Assembly (NCBI GenBank): GCA_027596075.1
Contig: JADGJC010000011.1
Span: forward strand, 1 to 64,000
Length of the DNA: 64,000 nucleotides
Reading direction: 5' to 3'
From: Rhizophlyctis rosea
Lineage: Eukaryota > Chytridiomycota > Chytridiomycetes > Rhizophlyctidales > Rhizophlyctidaceae
The stretch's first letter is position 1. Each line of letters begins with the position of its first letter. The translations under genes and the position numbers were made by a program. This document shows positions 12,401-55,810 of the stretch, piece by piece. The notes beneath the pieces are model-generated. The model ran no database searches. It saw nothing but the letters and a program-made list of their open reading frames with translations, and was not told the DNA's origin.

Positions 12401-15400
12401 ACGAGAAAGCTTACTGGAGGGAACCAAGATCCCCAATCTCTTCCCGGACAAAGATTGCAAAATATCATGAAGAAGTCGCCCATTTGATAGAATCAGCTGG
12501 TTGTACAGATTTTTGGCAGTCTGAAACAGGCAATGTCGACGCTGATTAGTTATATCGCACAACAACTAGCAGGATTATTCGACACGTACCGCAGCATTTC
12601 CCAAATAATTGTCCAGCCAGCGCGACAAGGTTTCAATGGTGCTCGTGTAGAAAGCCTCAATAGCTCCATGATCTGGTCCGCCTTCCAAAGCAATTCCATA
12701 AGGCGTTCGGAACGGGCGTGGAGAGGTCAAGATCCGTGTCCTAATAGAACAATCGCGGACGTTGCAAATATGAAGTTAGCTCCACCAATCAATGCATAAT
12801 CTCCCTTGTGCCAGAGGAAGTCGTCAATATGAAGGCCTTACCTCTTTTGATTCTCATCCAAAACCACAACCCCGCCGACTTTCTCCGCCACAACCTCTCC
12901 GTTGTTCCCGACCGCAAGCTTGACATCTCCCTTCTGTACCCACAAGAACGGCAAAAGCGTCCACAAACTCGCTTCCGTCATTGCATGCACCGGAAGGTAA
13001 AATGCCCTTTGCGAAGACTGAGAAGGGGTCACGGCCAGCTTTCTCGTAAAGTTGATTGGTGATGTGACCGCTGTTGTCTCTGTCGCTGATGGTGGCGGAG
13101 CCAGTTTGATTTCGAAGGAGAGTCGCTCGCCGTCAGATTTGAGAAGTTTGCCTTCCGGGTAGTGGAGGGAGAGACTGGATGTATGCGGAGTGGTGGGAGG
13201 AGGGAGGTTGCGGGTGGCGTCCTTCGTGTCCTTCAAAGGGCCTGGCGGCATGGTGTCTTTTGCAGCATTTGCCCCACCGGTGGTAGTTGTGCTAGCGCCA
13301 CTCATACCAGTGCCCTCAGCACCTTCCACACCAATCTCTGTCCGCTCACATCCATAGTTGATAACACTGACAACACTCGAACTCTCCCATCCAGGCGGGG
13401 CAACAGGCAAAAACACTTCTGGTGGGTCGAAAGCTATCGAAGGTTCCACCCCTTTCCCTACCAATTGAATATGGAACGAGGGCCTCATCCCAAGCGAATC
13501 CGTATGAAGCGGTAACGTGGCAGTGAAAGTTCCCGTGTGAGGCGGAGTGAAGGTCAGTGTAATTCCCGCCATATGGCTCGGAACGGGATCTCCTGCGCGT
13601 GGATATTGCTGCGACTGTTGTGGATGGCCCACCCTCGGTCCCAGTGTACCCCTCCAAGGCTCAACCTTGAAGAAATCACCACTCTCCTCGACTTCGTCTG
13701 TATCAACCCACCATTCCAACTCTCCATCTGTCTCATTGGTCAACCACACCACTTCTTTGGCGGGAGTTGTCAAGTGACTCACAGCCATGTTGCTCACCGC
13801 CGGATCACGATGAACGACTTTGGGTTTGAACGTTACGTTGCGTCGTGAGATCGTCAGGGGTGTTGGTGTCGGGGTTGCCGTGACGGGCAAAAACACACAA
13901 TTTTCCCCTCCCAACACAAAAATAGGCATGGAGAATCGGGAAGGTTGCGCGGTCGTAGGATGATAAGTCAACACCAACGGGAAGGTCTCATTTGGTATAA
14001 TATCAAAGACGTAAAGGTTCCCCTCTCCACCTGCCCCAACGCCTTCATCCACTAAACTTGGGACATCAAGCATCCCAGACTCGCCTTTACCCAAAGCTCT
14101 AAACCTCTTCACCCGACTTGCATACAGCGCATTGGCATCGGGAGCATCGCCTCTGCCACTCTTTGTCGACCGGCCGCTGCCTAAATAGGTTGATCTGCTC
14201 TTCTCCACTTTCCCTGCTCCTCCTCCTACCCCTCCTCCTGTGCCGCGCTCACCCGCCGCACTAGAAATAGCCGTTGCCGCACCACTTCTTGCACCTTCAC
14301 CAATTGCAAGAGAAAAGTCCGGATGGAGTCGAAGATCAATCACACACCGTACAGTAACCGGACTATCATTAACAATACCCAGATTCTTTGTTGAAAATGA
14401 CCCAACAACCGCGCCGTCCATGTTCATCCTTGCGTCTCCGCCGTCGGTTGTAACGCGCACACGTGGGCGGAAGGCATTATAGCGGACATGGACACGGTAG
14501 GTTTTGCCGCTTCCCAAGGGGCAAACGCTTAGATAGGCGTCGGTCGTACCTCCACTCTCCGCTGTGGGGAGAATCGTTATCGACAGATCTTGTGTGGTTG
14601 TAGGTGGGATAAGGGCGATTGAGGGAGATATCACCACTTCGGAGGAAGATTTTGACTCTGTGGAAGACGAGGTCACCGGAGCTGCAGTGAAGACGCAAGG
14701 ATTTTGCGACGTATTCTTCAACTTGATCACTTTCACAAAGGGTGAGGTAGGATTTGTTCCGGGTGATTGTGGAGGCTGTTGTTGGCCAGATCCTGTTACC
14801 GGCGGAAATAATGACGCACAAAGAAGACGGTTCCAGCGATGAGCGTCCGGACCATAGTTTGCTGGATCGACTCCTAATCCGATGTTACCGAACTCCAAGG
14901 GTGCACCTTTCGTCCCAGAAATGAGCGTAATGGCAGTCGGAAGGATTGATCCCGTACATTTGATCTGTTTTGTTTGAGTCAATCCCGCAGCCTCGTCTTC
15001 CTCGGAAGCAGACGGATCCAGAACCGTCATCTCGACATTTGCTTCATGGCTCGCCGTCACACCGGGTGTGTATGTTATCGTCACCGAACAAGAACTCAAT
15101 GGTGCAAGTGTGTAAGACTCTGGATGGATCGTAAACGGAGACGTAGCTGCGGTCGTGCCAACCCCACTACCAAACTTATCGCCCTTCCCATCCTGCTTCC
15201 CCGCACCACCACTAGCACCGCTCTCAGCGCCCTTCTCCTCCTCCAAAACTCGAAAAGCAAACATAGCAGGACTAGTTCCTGGGTTTCTCACTTCGATAGT
15301 CTCACTTTTGCTGGGCATATCAACCATTAGTTCTCCTCTTCCTCCCCCATCTCCACTACCTTCTCCCGCACCCTCCTGTCCTCTTTGAACAACTTCCCGT

Positions 15401-18400
15401 GTATCCACAAAGACGTCAACTTTCTCGCTTCCAATCTCCAAATCAACAGGCACCACACTTGCGACGATAGGAACCCTATACCGGTACCGTCCATTAACAA
15501 GATAACTCAGCTTCCTTTCATACGTCTTTGCCACATTCCCGCGGAAGGATACCCAGACACCGGCGATGGAAAAGGGCGGCACGATCAAGGTTGTGGGGGA
15601 GACTTCCAGGTGTCCTTTGTCTTCTGGTGCCCCAGAATTGGCTTTGCTGTCTCCGGCATCGACAGATATTGTGATTTGGATAGGTCTTTTGGTAGGTGTG
15701 GCGTTGAGGAACGAGAGGGGAAGGGATTGGGTTGAATGGACAGTTATGGTCTGGAAGGAGAGATGTTGGGTGTTGCAGTAAATGCAAGAGAGATCCAGCC
15801 CAGTCAGAGGCGTATCGAGTGGAGCAGTTGTGATGGTGGGTTCAGTACCCATGAGTTGGGGATTTTGGACCGAGGTGGTTGATGGGGGCCGGAACTCAAT
15901 GAGCCGTTGGAACAGCTGTGTCAGCGCACTCTTGTCCATAGACGAATGGGCCTTTGAAATCTTTTTTTGATCTTCCATTTCTGCGCTCACACCATTCTTC
16001 GATGTCATTGTTGTGGTCGCACCACTCTCAAAATCCATCAAACAGTCCACCGGCTCAGGTTCAACCAACCCACTCTCCTTATCCACCCGTCCCCGCCCCG
16101 CAATCTCCACCATTTCAAAATCCCTCAAATCAGCATCAACACCATCATTTCCCAATCGTTGCGTCCTCAACTCCCTTAATTTGTCCAGCCGCGTCATTAC
16201 TAAAAAGTCAATATACTTCTGACGATGTCCGCGTTTCTGCTCCCATTCCATCTTTGTATCCGGGCCCGTGGTGGGAAGATAGATTGACTCTTTGCCATCG
16301 TCGGAGAGGTGTCTATGAGAACGGGTGTTTGATGAGTGTTGAAGGGCGGCACGAGGCGGAGGACTGATACGGGCAGAACCAAAAATGCCGGCTGTGGAGG
16401 GTTCGGGGGATGATTGACCGTCTTGCCCAGCGCGTGGTGAACATAGTCCATGGACGTTAATATGAAGGCGAGAAACATCGTGGCCAGAATCTACCATATC
16501 TACCAAGCCCGCCATATCTGCTTCCTCATTCGACATGTTCGAGTCCTGTCGCTGTACTCTAACCCACCCACCACCAGCCTCTCCATCAACGGCCTCAACA
16601 ATGCATACAATTTTGCCCTTCATATCTCCAAGCTGATTAGGCCGGAACGTTACCACGACCTCCCTCTCCTCCCCAGCTTGCAATCTTCCTGATTTCGGCG
16701 TCACATGGAAATGGGCCGGCAAGGTAAAGCGAAATTTGAATGGCAGTTCGGTCCCGCCGTTGGAGAGGCGGAGGATGTGTTCGTTAGAGCGACCTTTACG
16801 TGTGTCGGGAAAGATGATGTCACGTGTGGAGAGGAGAGCACGGACGGGACAGGCGCGACCGGATAGGTGGAGGCTCAAAGGTACATCGGGATAGGTTTGA
16901 TTTGTGGTTTGGGATGTGATGATTTTCAAATGCATGGGAACGGAATAGTCCCTTGTAGGTGGAGGTGGCTGGGCGGATTTGAATCCCTTTTCCGGTTCAA
17001 TGATCCGAGGTGCAAATGTGAATGTCAACGGGGTGGAGTGGTACGGTGCTAACGTCCCTTCCGTCGGAAAGACCGATATAGATGCGCGAGAGTCAATGTC
17101 GTCCGATGCTTGGGTCAGAAGAGATTGGGATTGGGTGAGGAGTTGGGGTGGGACAATGGGTAGCGATTCTCCGGCGTGGGTTATGACCCATTTGATGGGT
17201 GTTGGACCACGGTTTTCCAACTTGGATCGCAGACGGGCGGTGCGGGAGTAGTGTACGGTACCAAAGTTCAAGTTGGTGGGATCGAGGTCTCGTGTTCCAT
17301 CCGCAGTACAGAGGCGGAGCTTGTGCTCTACCGTTTCCCCGGTGAGATGGATGTCAATGCTGCTCAACGGTGTCGATGATGCCGCCGCGATGGGTTTCCG
17401 ACCCATTTGGGATTCAGTGTGGTGGTAGACGTCGATATGAAGTATTTCGTCTAGGGGCCCAACATCACGAGGCAGGTAGGAAACTTGCACCGTGCAAGTA
17501 TTTGATGTCGTCAAGCTAGCAGTGGATTCAAACATTGCTAACCGGCGACTGTCCTCCCCTTTCATTGCCCCTCCCGCTTGCTTTGGTGTAGCTGCCAGCG
17601 TCCCAGACGAAGGCTGCACCCGGAGAGGACTATACTTGTCCCAAGAACACACAAATCGTCCTGGTCTTGGTCCAACATTTGTAAGTACAACTTGCTTGGT
17701 GACCCATCCAGCTGTTGTTTCGTGCAACTTGGCTTTCCTGTCACCGGCTCCATTGGCTTTGGGGGCAACCACAACCCCAAAATTTACTTCTTCAACCGCC
17801 TGAAGCCTCGGTCCAGCCGGAGTAGCTTCTAAAGGGATTTCGAGCTTTCCTTCGCCTTCAAACTCGAGCCCCAAAACATCCTTCCACACCTTCAATGTCG
17901 CATCGTCTCCACCGCCCATTGCTCCTCTCCCTCCACCCTTTCCCCCTCCTCCACCTCCACCACTGACCGCGGCAGCCGCAGGAATCGGCGCAACAAACTC
18001 CACAACCAACCCAACATCCATACCGGGCGCCACAAGCGTCCCATCCACATCGCCGCCCTTCACAATCCTGAAAACCTTCACTTTCCCCGGCGGACGCAAC
18101 CACACCCGCTTGGCCGTTTTTGTAAAATTCCCAACATGGATGGCCATGCATCGCTTCTCGCCAGGTACATAGTCGTGGAAGGAGAGACTTAGAGGGAAGA
18201 CGCGAATGCCCCAAAAGTCTTGTAGGTTTGCACGGGCTTCGGCTGCGCGGGTTGAGCGGGTTGATGGGGCGGTTAGGTCGGTGAAGAGAGTTGAGCGGGC
18301 GCCTGGGGTGGGTTTTTGATGGTGATGTGGCCTTTTATGCGGTATGCGGGTATGGGGGGATGGTTTAGTGGTGGTGATTGGTAGTTTGGAGATGGACTTG

Positions 18401-18516
18401 AGAAGCACGGATTTGGTCGGGAGGGGTGGAGGTTCCGCTGGGCGGCTGATGAGGTTTGGAGGTTCCGCTGCAAGAGGGGATGTTGATAGGTGTGAAGATG
18501 TCGCCATATTGGCCAT
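6493..18516 (-). CDS. CFAP47: Cilia- and flagella-associated protein 47 (CFAP47) homologue
   Basis: Giant axonemal protein, read as 18 exons and about 3,500 residues (human CFAP47 is about 3,190). Exon 1 (18516-12842) alone encodes about 1,890 residues from MANMATSSHL. Later exons: 12740-12590, 12520-12415, 12343-12174, 12110-11820, 11737-10976, 10909-10841, 10783-10673, 10601-10251, 10184-10047, 9975-9217, 9126 to about 8920, about 8832 to 8675, 8581-8297, 8172-7804, 7673-7362, 7230-6859, 6765-6493. Nearly all junctions are phase 0. Repeated beta-rich ASH/MSP-like modules run throughout (for example GEFWYKLHLEA, PVTFLPFDV, ISWSFEIRG). A calponin-homology region spans exons 5-6 (WCLVLLQAVKVFAAQNV to FKDSLAIAQLIESHLPEF), the hallmark of CFAP47 over HYDIN-like relatives. 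Known family role: central-apparatus region of motile flagella. The exon 12/13 join is unresolved. A KE-repeat tract lies near 10320-10360. Confidence 0.9.
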
Positions 18517-21354: not shown

Positions 21355-22400
21355 AATGCCAAAATGAGCTGTAAGCTAATATGACACGGCAGCAGCCTCA
21401 ACCCTCCATTTTTTTGGACGACCAGGCAGAAAGCGAAGAATCGAACGGGCACGCCTCAAACATGCTGGTCGTCTTCACACTCCTGCCTTTGTGTTTTGTG
21501 CAACGGACCTCGAATCCGACGCCCCCCTCCCGCGTTTCCGTATCCAACTTGGAAGTGCCTCCATAGTGCACAGGTGACAGCATCATGCGTTTAGCACACA
21601 TATTTGCAAGGGAATTGCACTGTGCGACCCCGCGGAAACCTCCTTCCGTTGAATATTGCTACCAGACATCATCATGAGCAAGCCACGGGTCGAAATTTGA
21701 CGCGTCACACCCCAAGGTTTGTCCATGGCGTTCCCAAATAAAAACGAGCGAGCCTTGATATCACCATGCAAAAGCACAGTCTCACTAACCTCCAATGAAT
21801 AGAAGCGTTGTATGCTGGTGCCATCCATCGCATCCAAAGCTTGTAGTTGGTGCAAGTGAGCCGCCTGAACCAGCCTGAATTTCTTCTGGACCCTCAGTCT
21901 ACGCGTCTCCCATATAAGGCCAAGACCAGTGGCTGTGGCTTAGCAACATGCGATGTGATTGGTCAAGATGGGTCCGCTCCGTTCCATGCTACACAGTCGG
22001 AGGAAAAGGCGCAAGGAAGTGACAGTGATTGCATCCGCCATCTCACCCAGAACTCCTCTACACAAAGAAGGCACAATCGGTCACGATCCCGTGAGGAGGG
22101 ATAAAGGGCTTCCTGAAAAACTATCCACTGCACAAATAGAGGTGCCCCAATAGTTTAGGTTCAGGTGTATTGCCCTGAGAAGTTAGCAACTATTCCAAGT
22201 CAACAGTCTTCCTCCACTGGCGTGAACGAGCTGTCGAAGTGCACTAAACGTAGGTGTTTGTTCTCCAAGTCAATCTGCGCATTACATACTTACATGTCTT
22301 GCCTCAGGCCCCTGAACCTTGCGAGGTTCCGGCCACCTCAACGAAGTGCCTCCAATTCTGAACCTCATAGTCCCGATAACGAGCCTCAAAAGCCTACCCA
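21355..22400. other. Gap with a possible unassigned minus-strand exon
   Basis: About 1 kb between two divergent genes. On the minus strand, 21858-21790 reads AAHLHQLQALDAMDGTSIQR followed by FYSLE and a GTTAGT donor-like site. That could be an upstream exon of the TIR-like gene or of a lost gene. An ACAG sequence lies just before its ATG. No complete gene could be built. Confidence 0.3.
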
Positions 22401-25400
22401 ATGTCTCGCCAACTATCACGCGGTTACGCGACGGCAGCTGGAGGCTTCCCGTCCTCCAAAGGCACATCTGGTAGGCTTACATGCTCAGGAAAGTTACACA
22501 CTATTTGTTTACTAACAAACTCCGCCTCACTCAAGCCGCCAAAATTGCCTGGAATGGCTATCAACGTGCAGTCCATCGCGCAAACCCAGAAGATCGAAAA
22601 AACCTCATTGGCAGAGTACGGAATTGGGACAAGCTCTCCATCCCGCAGAAGAATCAACAGATCGGCGAAAGTTGGAGGCAACGGTCGCCTGAGCAGAAGG
22701 CGGATTATATGCCTAGAATAGCTGGTGCGACTGATGACGTTGGAAGTGGGGTCAAGCTTGGTGATGGTCCCATAGAATCCCGGTGGAGTCCAATTGGAAT
22801 GAGGAATATGGCGGGTGGTCGGGGTACAAGCCTGGATACTGCAGTGGCACCGAGGGTGCCGAATAACAGAGTGGTTCCGAAAGAGGCAGAGACGATTGTG
22901 GAAGCACAGCCTGTCACCACAGAAGCCAAACCTGCTGAGAAGATCTCCCGCCCGTCATTGGGACGGCGTCGATCAATTAAGGTTACCGCAACCGGTGAAG
23001 CTGGGCCCAAGGCAAACTCTGCTCCGGAGCTACCTTCTTCCAAACGGACATCAGCTGCTTTCTCACCATCTGCACCTCTCGAGGCTACTCCCCTGCCTAC
23101 CGAAGCGAAGACCTCAGCATCGACCAGCGCGACGGAACTCAAACCCCAGCCCTCCATGACCTTGTCAGAATGGGCACAAGCTCATGCCCAGAACGCTCCA
23201 ACCAACTCCCCTGTCCTTCCCCGCCAATCATTACCTGCCCAAGACCTGACACCGCCCGTACCTACAAAGATACCTCAGATGACGACCACTAGTAACGATA
23301 CCAATATACCTACTCCATCAAGGTTTGGATCCATTCGAGAATACCCTAAGAAATACCAAGCGGGAGGTGCACCCGCTCCGAAAGCAATCAAACCAGTGTC
23401 AGTGGAGAGTTCTTCGACGTCTACACAAAGCCCATCAACCCTACCTCCCTGGTTGGTGTCCGCCCTGGCCGAATCGACACCCGCTACCAAAGATCCTGAT
23501 CCGATGCTCGGAGCCGCCACGGATTGTTCTCTACCGCCTTGGATGGTGGCTCCCTCCTATCCTTCACCGAAGACGAAGACGGAAAAGCACACGTCGGCGA
23601 AGGAAGTTGTCATCGAGCCACCACCACCCATTGTTACAAAGCCCATTACAGCAACAGAGAAGAACATCCCGCAAAGAGTAGAAGTGAAACGGGCAGTCAA
23701 GCCTGAAATGAAGATGTACGTTGTGAAGAAGAACATGCGGTATCGTGTTCCAAGGCGGATTGTGGAATTTGTTTCGGAGAGGAATGGGAGGTGGGATGTA
23801 GCTAAGGAGCAAGCTGACGCGGTGATGGAGAATCGAGGGAAGGAGAATGTAGCCCTGGAAGTTCAGTCACCACCTGTCACGCAGCTTGCCCTCCTAGACC
23901 AGTTGGACGATCAAGTTGCAGCGATGCTATTGGAGGCGCGCAAGCCGGAGGTGGAAGTGGAAGAACCGGCTTTGGTGATGGGTGATGTGGGTGTAACATT
24001 TGTCGAAGAAACGGCCGGTCCATCTGCCCATCCTGATACCACCACCGCCACATCATCACCACAAAAACACCCGGACTTTGCCTGGCTTCCTGCGTGGATG
24101 CTTTCCAACCCTGATGTCGCTGCTGTCGTACTTGAAGTCAATGATGGTCTTGACACGTCTGACTTTTTGGCTTCCTCGGCGGATATGGTTCCGGAATGGG
24201 TGATGGACTTTGCTGAGAAGCTTGAGGCGGAGGAGGAGAAGGGTGTGCGTGGTGGGAAGGAGGTTGAGATGAGTGCAGTTGATTCAGAGGTTGATGCCCA
24301 AGCTGCTCAACCGACGACTGTACCTGCCTGGTTGACAAATTATGTTGAAACCTACAACCGTCGCCGTGCGGAGCTGATTGCATACGTTGTGGAGAAGAAT
24401 GGTAGATGGGATCTTAAGAAGGATGTTGTAGATTCCCAGCCCGCTGCCACAATTTCTGCCACTCCATCGAATCAACCCAGTGCTGCCATCAGCGGGACCA
24501 GATCTCCAACCCCACCCCACATCCGCCACTACATAGTCCGCAAGAACCTCCACGCAGCACCAATCCAAAAACGTATCATCAGCTACGTGGTAGAAAAGAA
24601 CAATCGCTACGATACATCCACCCGCCTCGACAACGCTCCTTCCTTCCCGCAATCTCTCACACCGGGCCGACGAAAATGGTTACGAGAAGACCTGGATTTG
24701 CTTGTTGAGTTGCGGTCTTGGGGGTTGGAGTGGGAGGAGGTAGCGAGGTGTTTACCTGGAAGGGGTGTGAGAGGTTTGATGAGGATGCATAGGCGGGAGG
24801 TTGGGGGGAAGGATGGGGTGGTTAGGGAGGTGAGGCGGTGGGGTTTCCAAGTAAGGCAAAGGTTGAGGGGGACGAGGGGGGATCTTTTGATGAGGAAGAG
24901 GAAAGTGATGAAGGGTAAACTGGAGGATGAGGTTTTGGAGATGGGCAATATGCCATATGGTCCTGTGGAAGGTTTAGTTGCGAGTGTGGCTAAGGACGTG
25001 AAGAGCTTCAGTACGGCTTTGGCGGTTGCGGAGCCGGTGCGAAGTGCTGCTGTTGTTCAAGTTACCGATGCGGTTGCTCCTAGTGCCGTGATCAGAGTTG
25101 ACGAGGCGGTTTCTCCTCGTGCCGTCATCGCAGTCGACGAGGCAGTCAGAGCGGACAGTCTACGTATCCACCAACAGCAAGAACAACAGCCTTTTATCAT
25201 TCCTCCCTCGATTATCGCCCACGTCAACGCCCTTCCCACCTCCATTGCACCACGCACCGCAATTCCCGTGGCCATCAAAACTCCTGAAGCTATCCAACAA
25301 CGCGTCCAACGCATCTCCCCCTCCCTCAAAATGTACATCGTAAAGAAAAACCTCCACGCCGCACCAATTCCCTCACGGATCGTCAAGTATGTCGTCGAAA

Positions 25401-27511
25401 AGAACGGTCGGTGGGATGCCAAGAAGATGGAAACCGCAGTGGAGGAATTTCGAGTGGTGGAAGCGACGTCCTCTTCTCTTGAACCTTTCATTATTCCCGC
25501 ATGGATTCTTGACTCGAGCGCTACGGAAACCATGGCACGGAGTAAAAATGTTCCGGTGGTGAGGAGGAAGGTTGAAGCACCCAAAAGTGTTGCACGGGTG
25601 GAGGTAAAACCTGACATCAAGATGTACGTGGTGAAGAAGAACCTCCGTGCGGCATCGGTTCGTAAGGGTGTTGTGGAGTATGTAACGGAGAAGAACAGAA
25701 GATGGGAGCCTGTGGCGGAGTCGGTGGAGGATGAGATTGTGTTGGATGCTCCCGAATCTGCAGCGGTAAAGGACGGAAATGGGGCTGCACAGGTGGTCAC
25801 TAAGGCGAAGCAACAAGCATCCCCGCCTCGCGTCCCACCTCATATCAGACACTACGTCGTACGCAAAAACCTCCGTGCACCGGTTCGTCAGCGGGTAATC
25901 AAGTATGTGGTGGAGAAGAACGCGCGGTGGGATCAAGTTGAGAAGGCAGGCGAGGAAGTTAAGGAGGAAGTTGTGGGTGGAAGTGTTGAGGCTGCACCAA
26001 CTGCAACAAACCTCGCCAAACCCACACCATCTCCTCGTCCTGTCCCACCGCACATCCGCCACTACGTCGTAAGGAAGAACATCCACACCGCGCCCGTTCC
26101 AGCACGGATCAAGGACTTCGTCGTTGCGCAAAACGCCCGGTGGCGTAAGGCTGCTAAAATATCTGCACCCGTCCCACAGCGGCACCAAATCCCAGAACTC
26201 TCCTACTCCTCCATCTCCACCCCTTCCGAATCTCAACCCGCCATTGAACCAGTATGGCAAGACGCCGTTCAGCGGATGCAGGAGAGCGTTATCCCAAAGT
26301 GGGTGTTGGAGCAGGTTAGGACGATGGTTGGGGAGCATGATATTGAGGGAATGCGGTTTGTTGTGGAGATTGGGGATGTGAGGGTTGAGAGGGTTGATGC
26401 TGGGGCGGATGTTGAGGGGAGGGATGGTGTGAAGGCGGTGGGGATTGAGGAGAAGGGGAAGGTGGATGTTGCTGTGATGGAAGTGGGGGAAGTTGTGGAG
26501 GAGAAGAGGGAGGTTGCGAGTGATGTAACGGCAGATCAAACGGTTTCTTTGAGTCAGGTTGCTTCAGAAACACCCATCAGTACACGATTTTTGCGAGAAG
26601 CTGTTGCTGCCTCAGTCAAGCCGGACGTCGTGTCGGAAGGGTGGATGCAACAGGAGTTGTCATCATTGCTCGGTGCACGCGTTGCCAAACCCGTTTCACC
26701 TACCCGTTCTACGTCGAAACCGTTGAAGCCGTTCCCACAACCTCCTGTCCAACAACCGGCCATTCTTCCTCTGAATATCACCACTCATCCTATCACAACG
26801 CCTCATCTCGTGCACCCAACCCCTACATTCTCCCTCATCCCTTTCACCGCCCAAACGGTCCTGATGCCTCTGCCGCAAACGGTGCCCACCCACCTCGCAC
26901 TTATCGACACTCACATTGCAGCAGCTACACGGGCGGAAATCAACGCCAGTCACCAGACGGTGCAGACGCCTCCGGTTTCATTGCAACAAGGGATTGTCAA
27001 CATCGTGTCAAGGAGTGTTCCTTCACGCAAGATGAACACGCCCTTCTCTAGCGCGGTGTCGAATGTGTCGGTTGTGAGGAGGTCAGTTCCTGCTGGTGTC
27101 AAGAAAGCCCTTCCGAAATCCACGCCCGCAAGTGCAAACCAGGGTACACCCGCCATAACGACCCCACTCACCATGAAACCCCTCATCCCATCCGCCCCTC
27201 TCAAACCCTCTTTGCCCGCACCCACACCTCCACCAACAATAACAACAACGCCAACCACACCAACACCCCATAACCACAACGTCTCCCTCTCCCTCTTCTC
27301 CACCCGCCTAAACTTCAACCTGACCCTCCACCCGCACCAAAACGGTATGTCCGCCACCCCGCAGCAGCAGCGGTGGACACAGCGCCTAGTGCCCGGGCAG
27401 AAGAGTGAATTGGAGCTTTTGGCTGGGAAGTGGGGCCGGAAGGTTGATGTGAAGGTTGGGGGTACGTCGTGGAAGGTTGGGGTTGATGTGAAGGTGTTTA
27501 GTAAGATGTAG
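22401..27511 (+). CDS. YVV-KN-RWD repeat protein with SANT/Myb-like domain; probable mitochondrial presequence
   Basis: Two exons, 22401-22470 and 22536-27511, give 1681 residues. The intron has a TACTAAC branch site and CTCAAG acceptor. Splicing replaces a false start at 22481 and gives MSRQLSRGYATAAGGFPSSK, which looks like a mitochondrial presequence. Residues 24-90 (RNWDKLSIPQKNQQIGESWR, SPEQKADYMPR) weakly resemble an HMG-box-like helical segment. A SANT/Myb-like domain lies at about 733-780 (RKWLREDLDLLVELRSWGLE; WEEVARCLPGRG). Seven copies (six full, one half) of a roughly 33-residue repeat lie between residues 412 and 1227. A second short motif, hydrophobic-P-x-W-hydrophobic, occurs seven times (residues 326, 356, 541, 575, 619, 1009, 1275). 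A 12-residue triplicate is at about 858-893. Linkers are Pro/Thr- or Glu-rich. I do not recognise the family. A mitochondrial nucleic-acid-binding role is only a guess. Confidence 0.85.
23699..26146 (+). repeat. Protein repeat array: consensus (K/H)(M/H)YVV(K/R)KN...YVVEKN.RWD
   Basis: Copies within the gene, by nucleotide and residue: 23699-23797 (412-444), 24368-24412 (half copy, 635-649), 24512-24613 (683-716), 25319-25417 (952-984), 25607-25708 (1048-1081), 25835-25933 (1124-1156), 26045-26146 (1194-1227). Each full copy has two similar halves, KMYVVKKN or RHYVVRKN and then YVVEKN-x-RWD, joined by a basic linker such as LHAAPIPSRIVK. The copies differ at the DNA level, so the array is old and kept by selection on protein. 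The doubled YVVxKN core suggests an ancestral half-repeat duplication. Confidence 0.9.
25052..25159 (+). repeat. Three tandem 36-bp (12-residue) repeats
   Basis: Inside the repeat protein, three successive units read VVQVTDAVAPSA, VIRVDEAVSPRA and VIAVDEAVRADS. The unit is 36 bases and keeps the frame. The second and third units share VDEAV exactly. This is a recent-looking local expansion within a disordered linker. Confidence 0.85.
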
Positions 27512-41562: not shown

Positions 41563-43014
41563 ATGGAACCTGCCCTCTCCCCAGAATTGATAAGGGATAT
41601 TGCTCGTCTCTCGGGTCCCAAAATCAGCCGTTCCATCCGCCGCACCAATAAGTACTACCACGCCCTCATCACCCCTAAGGACCTGATATGGGCAGAGGCA
41701 GGCTGGAGATGTTTCGCGAAAGGTCTCGGGGAATGCTGGGAATGGGCGGTGGAAAACGGTCATAGGAGAATCCTAGAGGCGTATTTCCCTGATATGGAAC
41801 CACAAGAGCTAGAAAGCACGTTAGGCATGGCAGCCTATGCGGGATGGGTGAACGTGTTGGACTTTATGCTGACCAAAGGTGTGAACGTGGACGCCAATAA
41901 TGGGTTAGCCCTTCACGCAGCCTGCAGAAACGGCCACGTCGATTGCGTGCAACGCCTCCTCGAAGCCAACACCGATATCCATATCCTGAATGATCACGCC
42001 CTAATAACCGCCGCAGAGAAGGGCCACGTTGAAGTCATCAAAATTCTGCTGGGAGCTGGGGCCAACATTCATGCACAAAGGGAAGGAGCACTACAGTTAG
42101 CTGCATGCAATGGAGAAGTTCGGGTTGCTCAGACACTCTTGGAGGCTGGGGCGGACATCCACGCGGATAACGATAGACCACTGATGGGAGCAGTCGTGAA
42201 TGGACGGCTGGAGATGGTTCGGACTTTGTTGGCCGCGGGAGCTAATAGGGCGACGGAGGAGGAAAAGGCTTTACGGTTGGCGGCGAACGACGGGAATGCC
42301 GCGATGGTGAAACTGCTCCTAGAAGCCGGAGCGGACCTCCACGTTCGTAACGAATCCACCCTTATATTGGCAGGACGGGACGGACATTTGGGGGTGGTGG
42401 ACGTCTTGTTAGCAGGTGGAGCGGATGTCCATGCTCGGAACGAGTTGGCTTTGACATTGTCGGCTGAAGCTGGGCATGTAGATATAGTCCGGAAGTTAAT
42501 CGCGGCCGGTGCGGATCTTTCCATGCGCAATAGTCAGGCGTTGCGTCAGGCAGCCGGGGAGGGGCGTCTTGAAGTTGTGAAAATTTTGGTGGAAGCGGGT
42601 GCGAATGATGATCGGGGTGATGCGGTGTTTCAAGCTGCGGCCAACGCTAAGGTGGAGGTTGTGAAATACTTAGTGGATGTCGGAGCAAGTCTTCGGGTGC
42701 GGAACCAAGCACTATTCTGTGCGGTACGGGATGGGCATACGGCTGTAGTGGAAATTCTTTTGGTCGGAAGAGCAGACGCTGATGTTTGTGGTGCGGCAAT
42801 TTTGGCGATGGAGGAAGGGAATGTTGATATCATGAGAGTTATTTTGCATAAGGCGGAAGGTTTTCTGAATCGAGAACTCTTGCTGTTTTTTGCAAAATCT
42901 CGAGATAAGGTTGCATTTATAGATATGCTGGAGGAACCCAGCCCTGTTCCTACTCGACGTGAGTGGACCAGATCCGAAGGTCGCCTGAAGAGGGCGGATG
43001 ATGAGGAAAGATAA
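41563..43014 (+). CDS. F-box-like protein with 30-residue ankyrin repeats
   Basis: Intronless, 483 residues. Residues 1-60 (LSPELIRDIARLSGPKISRS, IRRTNKYYHALITP) look like a divergent F-box. From residue 116 there are seven repeats of exactly 30 residues (41908-42537), for example ALITAAEKGHVEVIKILLGA then GANIHAQREG. Shorter 28-29-residue copies follow. Each has the ankyrin helix-turn-helix (A..GH.EVV..LL.AGAD.H) but lacks about three residues of the usual 33-residue unit. The C-terminus is basic (RSEGRLKRADDEER). F-box plus ankyrin proteins usually act as SCF ubiquitin-ligase substrate adaptors; that is inference here. The intronless structure is unusual beside its intron-rich neighbours. 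Confidence 0.88.
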   Translation: MEPALSPELIRDIARLSGPKISRSIRRTNKYYHALITPKDLIWAEAGWRCFAKGLGECWEWAVENGHRRILEAYFPDMEPQELESTLGMAAYAGWVNVLDFMLTKGVNVDANNGLALHAACRNGHVDCVQRLLEANTDIHILNDHALITAAEKGHVEVIKILLGAGANIHAQREGALQLAACNGEVRVAQTLLEAGADIHADNDRPLMGAVVNGRLEMVRTLLAAGANRATEEEKALRLAANDGNAAMVKLLLEAGADLHVRNESTLILAGRDGHLGVVDVLLAGGADVHARNELALTLSAEAGHVDIVRKLIAAGADLSMRNSQALRQAAGEGRLEVVKILVEAGANDDRGDAVFQAAANAKVEVVKYLVDVGASLRVRNQALFCAVRDGHTAVVEILLVGRADADVCGAAILAMEEGNVDIMRVILHKAEGFLNRELLLFFAKSRDKVAFIDMLEEPSPVPTRREWTRSEGRLKRADDEER

Positions 43015-52586: not shown

Positions 52587-53285
52587 CACGCACGTAATCT
52601 CATCATTTTTGGCACCAAAAGACTTGGAATACTACCATCGGAAAAACACTTGCAAAGTTTCTTGGTAGCCAGCGGAACTGCCCTTGGGCTGGAGAGCAGA
52701 ACTTTACCGTTCCCTCAGTGAAGAGAAAGAACACCTCTTCAAGGACCATCAGCGACCACCTCCTTGTTGAACCACTGAAGAAGATCTTTGTGGAATTGTG
52801 ACGCCTGTCGACACTTGAGCTCCTGATTCCACACGGCAACCTCTTTTCAACACTCTTTTGCATATCCTGTGTCGCTACGCACAAATTTTTGGGACACCTA
52901 CTAGATTACAGTAAGTACAACTTTCAGACTTACAACGGTCGCACAGCACTCGTTGTGTATTTGTGTGGTCCTCACCTTGTCTGGTTTGGTCTTTTTTTCT
53001 TACAGAATCAAACTTCCGCAAAAAATACGAAAAACAATCAATCATCCATCATTGTTGCCGTTCACTCTTGCGTTTGAAGCACTCCGTCATACCAAGTAGC
53101 CCCTCGTGGCATTCCAGGTTTTTGGCCGGTATGAAAAGCCCTGTTTTGCGGCTACATTCCTGGTCACCCCTTCACGGCATCACACATAGAACGTATCGCA
53201 ATTCCAAACCGCCCTCTTTCGTCAACAGAAAACACTTCAAAACGGTTTTCCATCGCCACCGCCATCGCCATCGAGCAGTCCTGTG
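52587..53285. other. Upstream region and probable 5' UTR of CCR4
   Basis: About 700 bases with no recognised gene. GTAAGT at about 52911, followed by T-rich DNA and TTACAG near 53000, could be a 5'-UTR intron. This is not certain. Confidence 0.35.
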
Positions 53286-55810
53286 ATGGCAGATAAAGAG
53301 GATTCACTGAATCCTTATTCGTATCAAATGGGAGCACAAGCCTTCTTTTCCTATAACCCACCTGGATCCCCCGGCAGCACCGCAAACGGTTCCCCCGCAC
53401 CCTCCTCACCATCCATCAACGGAACAGCCTACGGCACGCACGGACACCAAATGTACGGGACAACTGTAGCGCCGCGGTTTTCCAACCAGCTGCACTTTGG
53501 CACCAAACTCCCCGCCCATGTACAGCTAAATCACTCGATGCTGTCTCCATCACCATACCCACAGCCCATGGGCCTCTCAACACATCCAGCGACGTCGTCA
53601 ATGCCCGCTGCGAATTCCGTGTCCATAGCTGCAGGGGTAGGGATGGGTGTTGGGGTGGGTGTAAACGGGCAGCTAGCAGTTGCAGGGCCACACCACCAGA
53701 AGCAGGTAGAATCCGCACAAATCTCACGACAAATGGCATCACCACATCATCACGCACGGGTAGCGGCGGCGGCGTCCCGCACAACAGCTCTAGCGGCTGC
53801 GGCGTCGGGAGGTGCACCGGCGGGGACGGGCGCGGATGGGGCGGCCAACGGGACGGGGGCAAATAGTGGCGAGAAGGCCTCGGAATGGACTGTAGTTGAT
53901 TTGGGCGGGATGCAGATCAAGAACCTGTCCAAAGAGCTGTTCCGATACTCGTTCCTCACCACGCTATATCTGAACCACAACGCCCTGACTTTCATACCGC
54001 CAGAGATCAGTCGACTACGGTCGCTGGTGGTTTTGGATATTTCCGGCAACAAGCTCGCGAGCGTGCCGGCGGAGTTGGGGTTGTTGGTGATGTTGAGGGA
54101 GCTGTTGATGTTTGATAACGAGTTGACGTTTTTGCCGCCGGAATTGGGGAGTTTGTACTTATTGGAGACGTTGGGGTTGGAGGGGAACCCGTTGAATGAG
54201 CCTTTGTTGTCCATGATTCAGAAGGATGGGACTACGGCTGTCGTTAGTTATTTGCGGGATACATGTCCAGGTAGGCTTTGGTTTGGCAGACAATATTGGA
54301 ATGGTCAACTCATACTGACACCGCCCATGTTTGTTTTACAGTTCCACCCATGCCCGCAGATCGGGAGTGGATTCAGTTGGAGGAGGATGCATATGGAAAT
54401 ACTCCGAATGGTAAGAAATCTTACTGGCTACCCTTTGACACTGAAAAAGTACTCATCGCAATTCTGTAGAATCCTTCACCGTCATGTCCTATAACTGCCT
54501 CAGCGAGCGATACGCCCCCTCCTCATCATATGCATACACACCGGCATGGGCACTAAGTTGGGACTACCGAAAGGATCTCCTGCTGCAGGATTTGTTGAAT
54601 TATAATGCGGACATATTGTGTTTGCAGGTTCGTGTTTTTTTTTTCATGGCGGGAACTTGGACGATTATCTTGGGAGGTGCGGGATTGAGCTGGGATTAGA
54701 ATGACATTCTTACTAACTTTTTGGTTTGCATCATTCAGGAGATTGAGGCGGGCCAGTTTGACGAGTATTTCCAGGAGCAGCTGCGACAGCATGGAGAGTA
54801 CGAAGGAGTGTTTTTCCAGAAGTCAAGGGCTAGGACGATGGGGGAGACGGAGAGGAAGCAGGTGGATGGCTGTGCTACGTTCTATAAATCAGCCAAGTAA
54901 GTTGATACTGGGTATCTTTTTCTCTTATCCGATGTGTTAATTTGCAGACGAGCAATTTGCTGATCAATATTTCATTATATTACTCTTTAGGTTCACCCTT
55001 ATCGATAAACACTGCGTAGAATTCCAACAAATAGCCATGCAACGCCCCGAGCTACGGAAATCGGAGGACATGCTGAACCGGGTGATGCTCAAGGACAACA
55101 TTGCGGTGGTGGTGCTGTTGGAGCACAAGGAGACGGGCTTGAGGCTGATGGTGGCGAACGCGCATTTACATTGGGATCCGAGTTATAGGGATGTGAAGTT
55201 GGTGCAGACAGCGATGTTGGCGGAGGAGATTCATCGGTTGGAGGGTGGGTGGGTTAAGAATGCGGGCAAGGGAGCGGCGGCGGCGGCGGCAGGAGCGGGG
55301 ACGGGTGGACAGACAAATGGGACGAATGGGGCGGGATCGGGTGGTGCGGCGGGTGGGTCGACAACGCAACCCACACGGTTGCCACTTTTGATTTGCGGAG
55401 ACTTCAACTCCCTTCCCGATTCCGGGGTATACGAGTTCCTTTCCTCCGGCCAGGTCGCGCAAGACCACGACGATCTCGGGACCTACACCTACGGGCCGTA
55501 CACGACGGAAGGGCTGTCACATAAGTTCTCACTGAAGAGCGCGTACTCGCACGTAGGGGAGCTGGAGTTTACGAATTTCACGCCGACGTTCAAGGGTGTT
55601 ATTGATTATGTGTGGTATTCCACGAACGGGTTGAGCGTGACGGGTCTTTTGGGGAATGTGGATCGGGAGTATGTGGGCCGAACGGTTGGGTTTCCTAATG
55701 CGCATCATCCGAGTGATCATATTCCGTTGGTTGTGCAGGTTGTTATGAAGAGGGGTGGGGTTGGGGAGAGGGGCAGGAAGGTTGTGTTCAATTTTTCCAA
55801 TAAAGAGTAA
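53286..55810 (+). CDS. CCR4: CCR4 poly(A)-specific deadenylase (CNOT6-like)
   Basis: Catalytic subunit of the CCR4-NOT complex, shortening mRNA poly(A) tails in the cytoplasm. Five exons, 53286-54270, 54342-54410, 54470-54627, 54739-54896 and 54991-55810, give 729 residues. Residues 1-200 are low-complexity. A leucine-rich-repeat block at about 205-320 (LTTLYLNHNALTFIPPEISR; LVVLDISGNKLASVPAELG) is the part that binds CAF1/NOT1. The endonuclease/exonuclease/phosphatase domain starts ESFTVMSYNCLSERY. Magnesium and catalytic residues are visible: E405 in CLQ|EIEAGQFDEY, then NAHLHWDP, ICGDFNSLPDSGVY (about 590) and HHPSDHIPL (about 697). An odd Ala/Gly/Thr-rich insert of about 50 residues sits just before GDFNS (55260-55370). 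Confidence 0.96.

Follow-up and report, generated by a model that had tools for sequence, protein, structure and literature searches.

Seven copies of a basic repeat unit, with weakly HMG-like and Myb-like regions, in a large protein of probable mitochondrial location from the chytrid Rhizophlyctis rosea

The mitochondrial HMG (mtHMG) proteins Abf2, Gcf1, Mhb1 and TFAM are small proteins. In published accounts, mtHMG proteins are described as ranking with the most divergent proteins of the mitochondrion and as difficult to find with simple tools (PMC4725248, PMC7463775), and fast evolution makes many proteins of mitochondrial nucleoids hard to recognise from sequence (PMC4725248). The best-characterised mtHMG proteins have two boxes (PMC4725248). 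Glom from Physarum polycephalum is described as a divergent mtHMG protein with additional lysine-rich and proline-rich regions (PMC7463775). Here we describe a gene of Rhizophlyctis rosea, a chytrid of the order Rhizophlyctidales, that is located at positions 22401-27511 on the plus strand of a window of 64,000 nucleotides (the whole stretch of DNA analysed). Its product may resemble Abf2, Gcf1, Mhb1 and TFAM (PMC4725248, PMC7463775) in a presequence followed by an HMG-like region and in fast evolution. It differs from the mtHMG proteins in its length of 1681 amino acids, in having one divergent HMG-like region instead of the two boxes of the best-characterised ones, and by the addition of a Myb-like domain, which is joined by seven units without a known family. 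Compared by description only, Glom differs in having its two HMG boxes at the C-terminus, and the passages on Glom in PMC7463775 mention no repeat of the YVV-KN type found here.

The window lies within contig C13 (264,940 bases) of a genome of 44.1 Mb in 634 contigs. Exon 1 (22401-22470) encodes the predicted presequence MSRQLSRGYATAAGG... and is followed by an intron (22471-22535) with the sequence GTAGGC...TACTAAC...CTCAAG, bounded by GT and AG, and by exon 2 (22536-27511, including the stop codon). The same reading frame has a stop codon at 22377, which limits the start on the upstream side. The spliced translation is identical at every residue to the NCBI protein HDV00_000652 of R. rosea, which implies the same splice. 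The open reading frame, the intron and the repeats, all of which had been proposed in a first-pass annotation of this DNA, were borne out by these data and by those below. The protein is rich in V, A, P, S and T. We found no literature on HDV00_000652.

The half-motif [YF][VI][VTS].[KRQ]N occurred 13 times in the protein and at most once in any of 2000 shuffled sequences. Six clear units, each of 34-35 residues, aligned cleanly: unit 1, found by motif search and alignment (amino acids 411-444; 23696-23797), and, defined by the alignment, units 3 (682-716; 24509-24613), 4 (950-984; 25313-25417), 5 (1047-1081; 25604-25708), 6 (1123-1156; 25832-25933) and 7 (1193-1227; 26042-26146), all on the plus strand like the gene. 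The seventh copy, unit 2 (amino acids 619-649; 24320-24412, plus strand), aligned with gaps. Over the seven aligned rows Y, N, V, N and R were invariant. Successive unit ends, taken at the anchors of the regular expression, were separated by 205, 67, 268, 97, 75 and 71 amino acids. The first-pass annotation had given a spacing of 75-270 residues; the shortest distance is 67 and not 75.

The unit itself most likely consists of a segment of about 17 residues that was duplicated internally, a point that the first-pass annotation had overlooked. A profile was built from the first halves of the six units with no second half included, and it placed all seven second halves among the top 15 positions of the protein, with scores from 16.4 down to 1.1. 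The best scores in 300 shuffled sequences had a mean of 2.7 and a maximum of 17.9, and the weakest second halves are non-significant when taken alone. The duplication is suggested because the second halves rank high with a profile made from first halves only. The tyrosine or phenylalanine positions of the two halves are 17-18 residues apart, and 14 in unit 2. Unit 2 (motif at amino acid 640) had been counted as a half copy beside six full ones. Alignment and the first-half profile pointed to VPAWLTNYVETYN as its candidate first half, which lies 14 residues upstream, whereas the distance elsewhere is 17-18. It ranked 14th with a score of 2.8, which by itself is chance level when compared to the mean best shuffle score of 2.7. 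Judged from its position, the supposed half copy is probably a seventh full unit with a diverged first half that starts with VPAWL.

The mean charge of the units was +5.9, compared to +0.8 for all 33-residue segments of the protein, and random sets of seven segments reached the unit mean with a frequency of 5e-05; this agrees with the basic character that had been assigned to the units. AlphaFold2, given the seven units as an alignment, predicted two helices, spanning residues 7-19 and 24-43, in a stretch of 44 residues that contains unit 6, with a mean predicted local distance difference test (pLDDT) value of 69.8 and a predicted template modelling (pTM) score of 0.33. We concluded, with modest confidence in the model, that the unit may fold as a two-helix hairpin. 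A Foldseek search of the PDB with this model returned one match (E 7.5) and none at E<=0.001, which left the hairpin without an informative structural neighbour. The helical moment was at or above the 75th percentile in six of the seven second halves and in one of the seven first halves.

The unit had no significant match in Pfam, the PDB or NCBIfam, as the first-pass annotation had expected for a repeat without a named family. It matches nothing in the libraries searched and is known from one species. The candidates that did appear were rejected. The SOCS box (PF07525) was matched by one of the seven units only (unit 7, E 0.068 and 0.082), far under the cut-off and presumably by chance. Unit 6 matched a KID repeat at E 0.64 and the complete sequence matched EABR at E 0.56, and both were likewise dismissed. 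Likenesses of the unit to LysM, PPR, TPR and Img2 were also considered and were not among the Pfam matches. At the N-terminus DUF3106 and DUF4515 (E 0.012-0.14) stayed under their cut-offs and were dropped, and the C-terminal region (amino acids 1595-1681) matched no Pfam family. The string YVVEKN led in the literature only to papers with unrelated titles.

We compared the start of the protein, MSRQLSRGYATAAGGFPSSKG, with precursors from the same genome. The OSCP precursor of R. rosea, MLFSRAASTVSRSAALAQSARGYATAQ, contains RGYATA, the GrpE precursor reads MSAIRSL...FLSRRLYSTEE, and two HMG proteins start with ...TRSYATAA (L027) and ...TRSYAAAA (L028). The pattern R-x-[YF]-[AS]-[TS] fits OSCP and GrpE of three families chosen for comparison. 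The first acidic residue of the protein is at position 42, although D and E make up 10.6% of all residues, and the helical moment of the start is at the 97th percentile among the segments of the protein. Mitochondrial import by a putative N-terminal presequence is supported by these comparisons, because the start, with RGYATAA, resembles the presequences of OSCP, GrpE and the two HMG proteins of the same fungus. It had been proposed before that a presequence is created by splicing, and the spliced N-terminus is in line with this.

The region behind the putative presequence (amino acids 25-87; 22538-22726, plus strand) is weakly HMG-like, perhaps of the second-box type, and this weak likeness was also missed by the first-pass annotation. 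The sole PDB match of the N-terminus was an HMG protein (E 0.27), and the Pfam HMG_box gave E 0.12 and 13.3 bits, below the cut-off of 25.4. Own profiles were made from 19 of the 20 HMG loci of R. rosea, as L024 was dropped for stops. With a profile of 11 longer boxes, the N-terminal piece of 120 amino acids scored above all 1000 shuffles, and with a two-sequence profile of second boxes it ranked first over 2000 shuffles. Alignment of the N-terminus to the second box of L027 covered 59 residues with a score of 48 that none of 200 shuffles reached. In a downstream frame, L027 (contig C616) and L028 (contig C246) each have a second HMG-like box together with a tail that is rich in K and A and resembles histone H1. 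From predicted exon joins, both are candidate mitochondrial nucleoid proteins.

Amino acids 733-775 (24662-24790, plus strand) had been read as a SANT/Myb domain, and the tests fell on both sides. Six of the eight PDB matches of this part were Myb chains (E 0.16-0.9), and its only match in the genome outside the gene itself was a repeat of a multi-Myb protein (43% over 36 amino acids, E 0.049). Among 1456 open frames from loci of R. rosea in which Myb genes are over-represented from the outset, the three best for this part were Myb proteins. Pfam and a profile of R. rosea Myb repeats failed to recover it, and the region can be called Myb/SANT-like in a weak sense only. The multi-Myb proteins L042 and L046 of R. 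rosea are nearest to it and have presequence-like N-termini by eye. They differ by tandem Myb repeats, and no YVV-KN units were seen in them in the genome search with units 4-7. The genome contains at least 148 matches to Myb (PF00249) at E<=10, with 150 of 171 candidates scored and not all of the matches above the cut-off. Many of them are in multi-repeat proteins, a cluster is located on C624:72871-103208 (L036-L038), and several Myb proteins have N-termini that look like presequences by eye (for example L044).

It is plausible that the protein is probably mitochondrial and possibly related to nucleic acids. The explanation that we favour, tentatively and at somewhat under even chances, is a lineage-specific, fast-evolving mitochondrial architectural protein that holds nucleic acid and condenses or tethers nucleoids. 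The protein would be imported through its presequence, which would be cut near RGY/ATAA, and would hold mitochondrial nucleic acid by the divergent HMG-like box and the one Myb-like domain. The units, seven small hairpins of basic, helical character (YVV.KN ... YVVEKN.RWD) that are joined by disordered linkers, would add many weak contacts, either to the backbone of DNA or RNA or to a partner that recurs along the nucleic acid, by which nucleoids would be tethered or condensed. We infer the binding of nucleic acid by the hairpins and the nucleoid role of the protein. A flexible multivalent clamp is suggested because seven basic hairpins over 800 residues and two possibly DNA-binding domains are present in one chain. 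Rather unlikely in all its parts is the more specific claim that the internally duplicated basic alpha-hairpin is a new module that clamps nucleic acid in a multivalent manner within a rhizophlyctid-specific organiser of mitochondrial nucleoids with HMG-like and Myb-like elements. If it were true, the combination of HMG-like, Myb-like and new hairpin repeat elements would represent another way to pack or tether mitochondrial nucleic acid, and the unit of 34-35 residues is small enough for direct testing.

Several results weigh against the architectural protein. No domain anywhere in the protein was above a curated Pfam cut-off. Unit 2 has a charge of just +2, and the helical moment was unremarkable in six of the seven first halves and in the second half of unit 7. 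Img2 was dropped as a third comparator for the presequence, since its Pfam match was sub-threshold and the RLFATS stretch lies about 700 bases upstream of that match in another frame. For the HMG-like region, one of 1000 shuffles tied the stretch score and exceeded the whole score with the 19-box profile, and 43 of 200 shuffles reached the score of the alignment to L028. Profiles of first boxes and of both boxes combined missed the N-terminus, and the second-box profile gave the N-terminal stretch just -0.4 bits when run on the full-length protein. The N-terminus was not listed in the scan of the genome with PF00505, and its model, made without relatives, had a pLDDT of 54 and led Foldseek to no HMG structure. 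For the Myb-like part, the fragment matched no Pfam family at E<=10, and the scan of the genome with PF00249, which scored 150 of 171 candidates, did not list amino acids 733-775. This part was also missed by a profile built from 32 Myb repeats of R. rosea. The multi-Myb repeat that it matched is itself below the PF00249 cut-off (20 bits).

The weakness of both the HMG-like and the Myb-like assignment also gives room to a different function, in which the protein is a scaffold and each unit docks a single partner molecule, such as a subunit of the mitoribosome or of the import machinery; the two DNA-binding-like domains would then be remnants or wrongly assigned. We consider this somewhat unlikely. 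Short units that are 67-268 amino acids apart and each conserved alone are seen in multivalent scaffolds, and the invariant Y, N, V, N and R are not solely basic. The positive charge of the units and the two possible nucleic-acid-type domains on the same chain speak against docking. In its favour, a second short motif recurs in the protein, which the first-pass annotation had overlooked. P.W[LMVI] after V, I or L has seven copies, at amino acids 327, 357, 542, 576, 620, 1011 and 1277, and the stricter form [VIL]P.W[LMV] has six, compared to a maximum of two among 2000 shuffles. Motif search located LPPWL (23441-23455), LPPWM (23531-23545), LPAWM (24086-24100), VPEWV (24188-24202) and IPKWV (26291-26305), and the wider form added IPAWI (25493-25507), all on the plus strand. 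The copy at amino acid 620 (VPAWL) opens unit 2, which suggests that the motif may be related to the first half of the unit.

HMG and Myb proteins are mostly nuclear, which speaks for a further reading, a nuclear protein of chromatin or transcription whose start resembles a presequence by chance. This is improbable, as RGYATAA agrees with the presequences of OSCP, GrpE and two HMG proteins of the same organism and acidic residues are absent before amino acid 42.

A young, largely disordered orphan whose repeats were multiplied by internal duplication and serve little specific purpose is slightly more improbable still. Such an orphan would fit the composition rich in V, A, P, S and T, and no relative was found in protein searches that covered 5.77 billion sequences. 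With residues 390-1230 at E<=0.001, HDV00_000652 itself was the only hit among the matches listed (7988 candidates). A query in which the N-terminus, the C-terminus and the units had been rearranged gave only the protein itself or nothing at E<=10 among 7982 candidates, whose lengths were set by its 1022 amino acids, and 483 residues of this query alone gave none at E<=10 among the matches listed (7997 candidates). Orphan here means not found by word-based search. In the genome of R. rosea, the N-terminal, Myb-like and C-terminal stretches and units 4-7 were searched each apart. The region of the units has a single place: the stretch with units 4-7 (amino acids 945-1240) matched only its own gene (at three places), and the next-best match had E 0.68. 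Two matches of the C-terminal stretch (E 0.014 and 0.083) looked like chance, one holding a stop and the other lying in a frame of 115 amino acids without an evident gene. In viral contigs 77 stretches fitted a pattern and none was confirmed, and we found no literature that joins the HMG box with SANT in chytrid mitochondria, HMG and Abf2 with Myb in fungal mitochondrial nucleoids, or Myb expansion with mitochondrial targeting in Chytridiomycota. The lack of relatives also fits a protein of the mtHMG type, because mtHMG proteins, by the accounts cited above, diverge fast and escape simple tools. Against an orphan of little function, the synonymous sites of the copies are at or close to saturation and yet the ratio of non-synonymous to synonymous substitutions (dN/dS) was 0.16-0.65 in 10 of 15 unit pairs; the other five were saturated. 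The ratios were calculated by hand from dN and dS for six units, leaving out unit 2, with 28 codons per comparison. Values below 1 in all 10 pairs with defined dS confirmed the earlier statement that the protein sequence of the copies is kept more than the DNA, and positions are invariant across copies. Should the protein nevertheless prove to be an orphan of this one species with no relatives, it would be no more than a curiosity.

A polyprotein that would be processed within the mitochondrion to yield several peptides with hairpins is very improbable. Units 3, 6 and 7 contain RHYVV or RHYIV, which by inspection resembles the R-x-Y context of presequences, but this motif lies inside the conserved unit and not between units, and the other four units do not have it.

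On the minus strand opposite the repeat gene, long open frames are present at 25373-26539 (388 amino acids) and 25057-25800 (247 amino acids), which are perhaps by-products of codon bias. Elsewhere in the window, a CFAP65-like flagellar gene with Pfam CFAP65 Ig-like domains is located at 12838-18516 on the minus strand. At 53283-55810 on the plus strand a leucine-rich repeat (LRR) frame is followed by an Exo_endo_phos frame, an order known from CCR4 deadenylase. An ankyrin-repeat protein of 483 amino acids is encoded at 41563-43014 on the plus strand.

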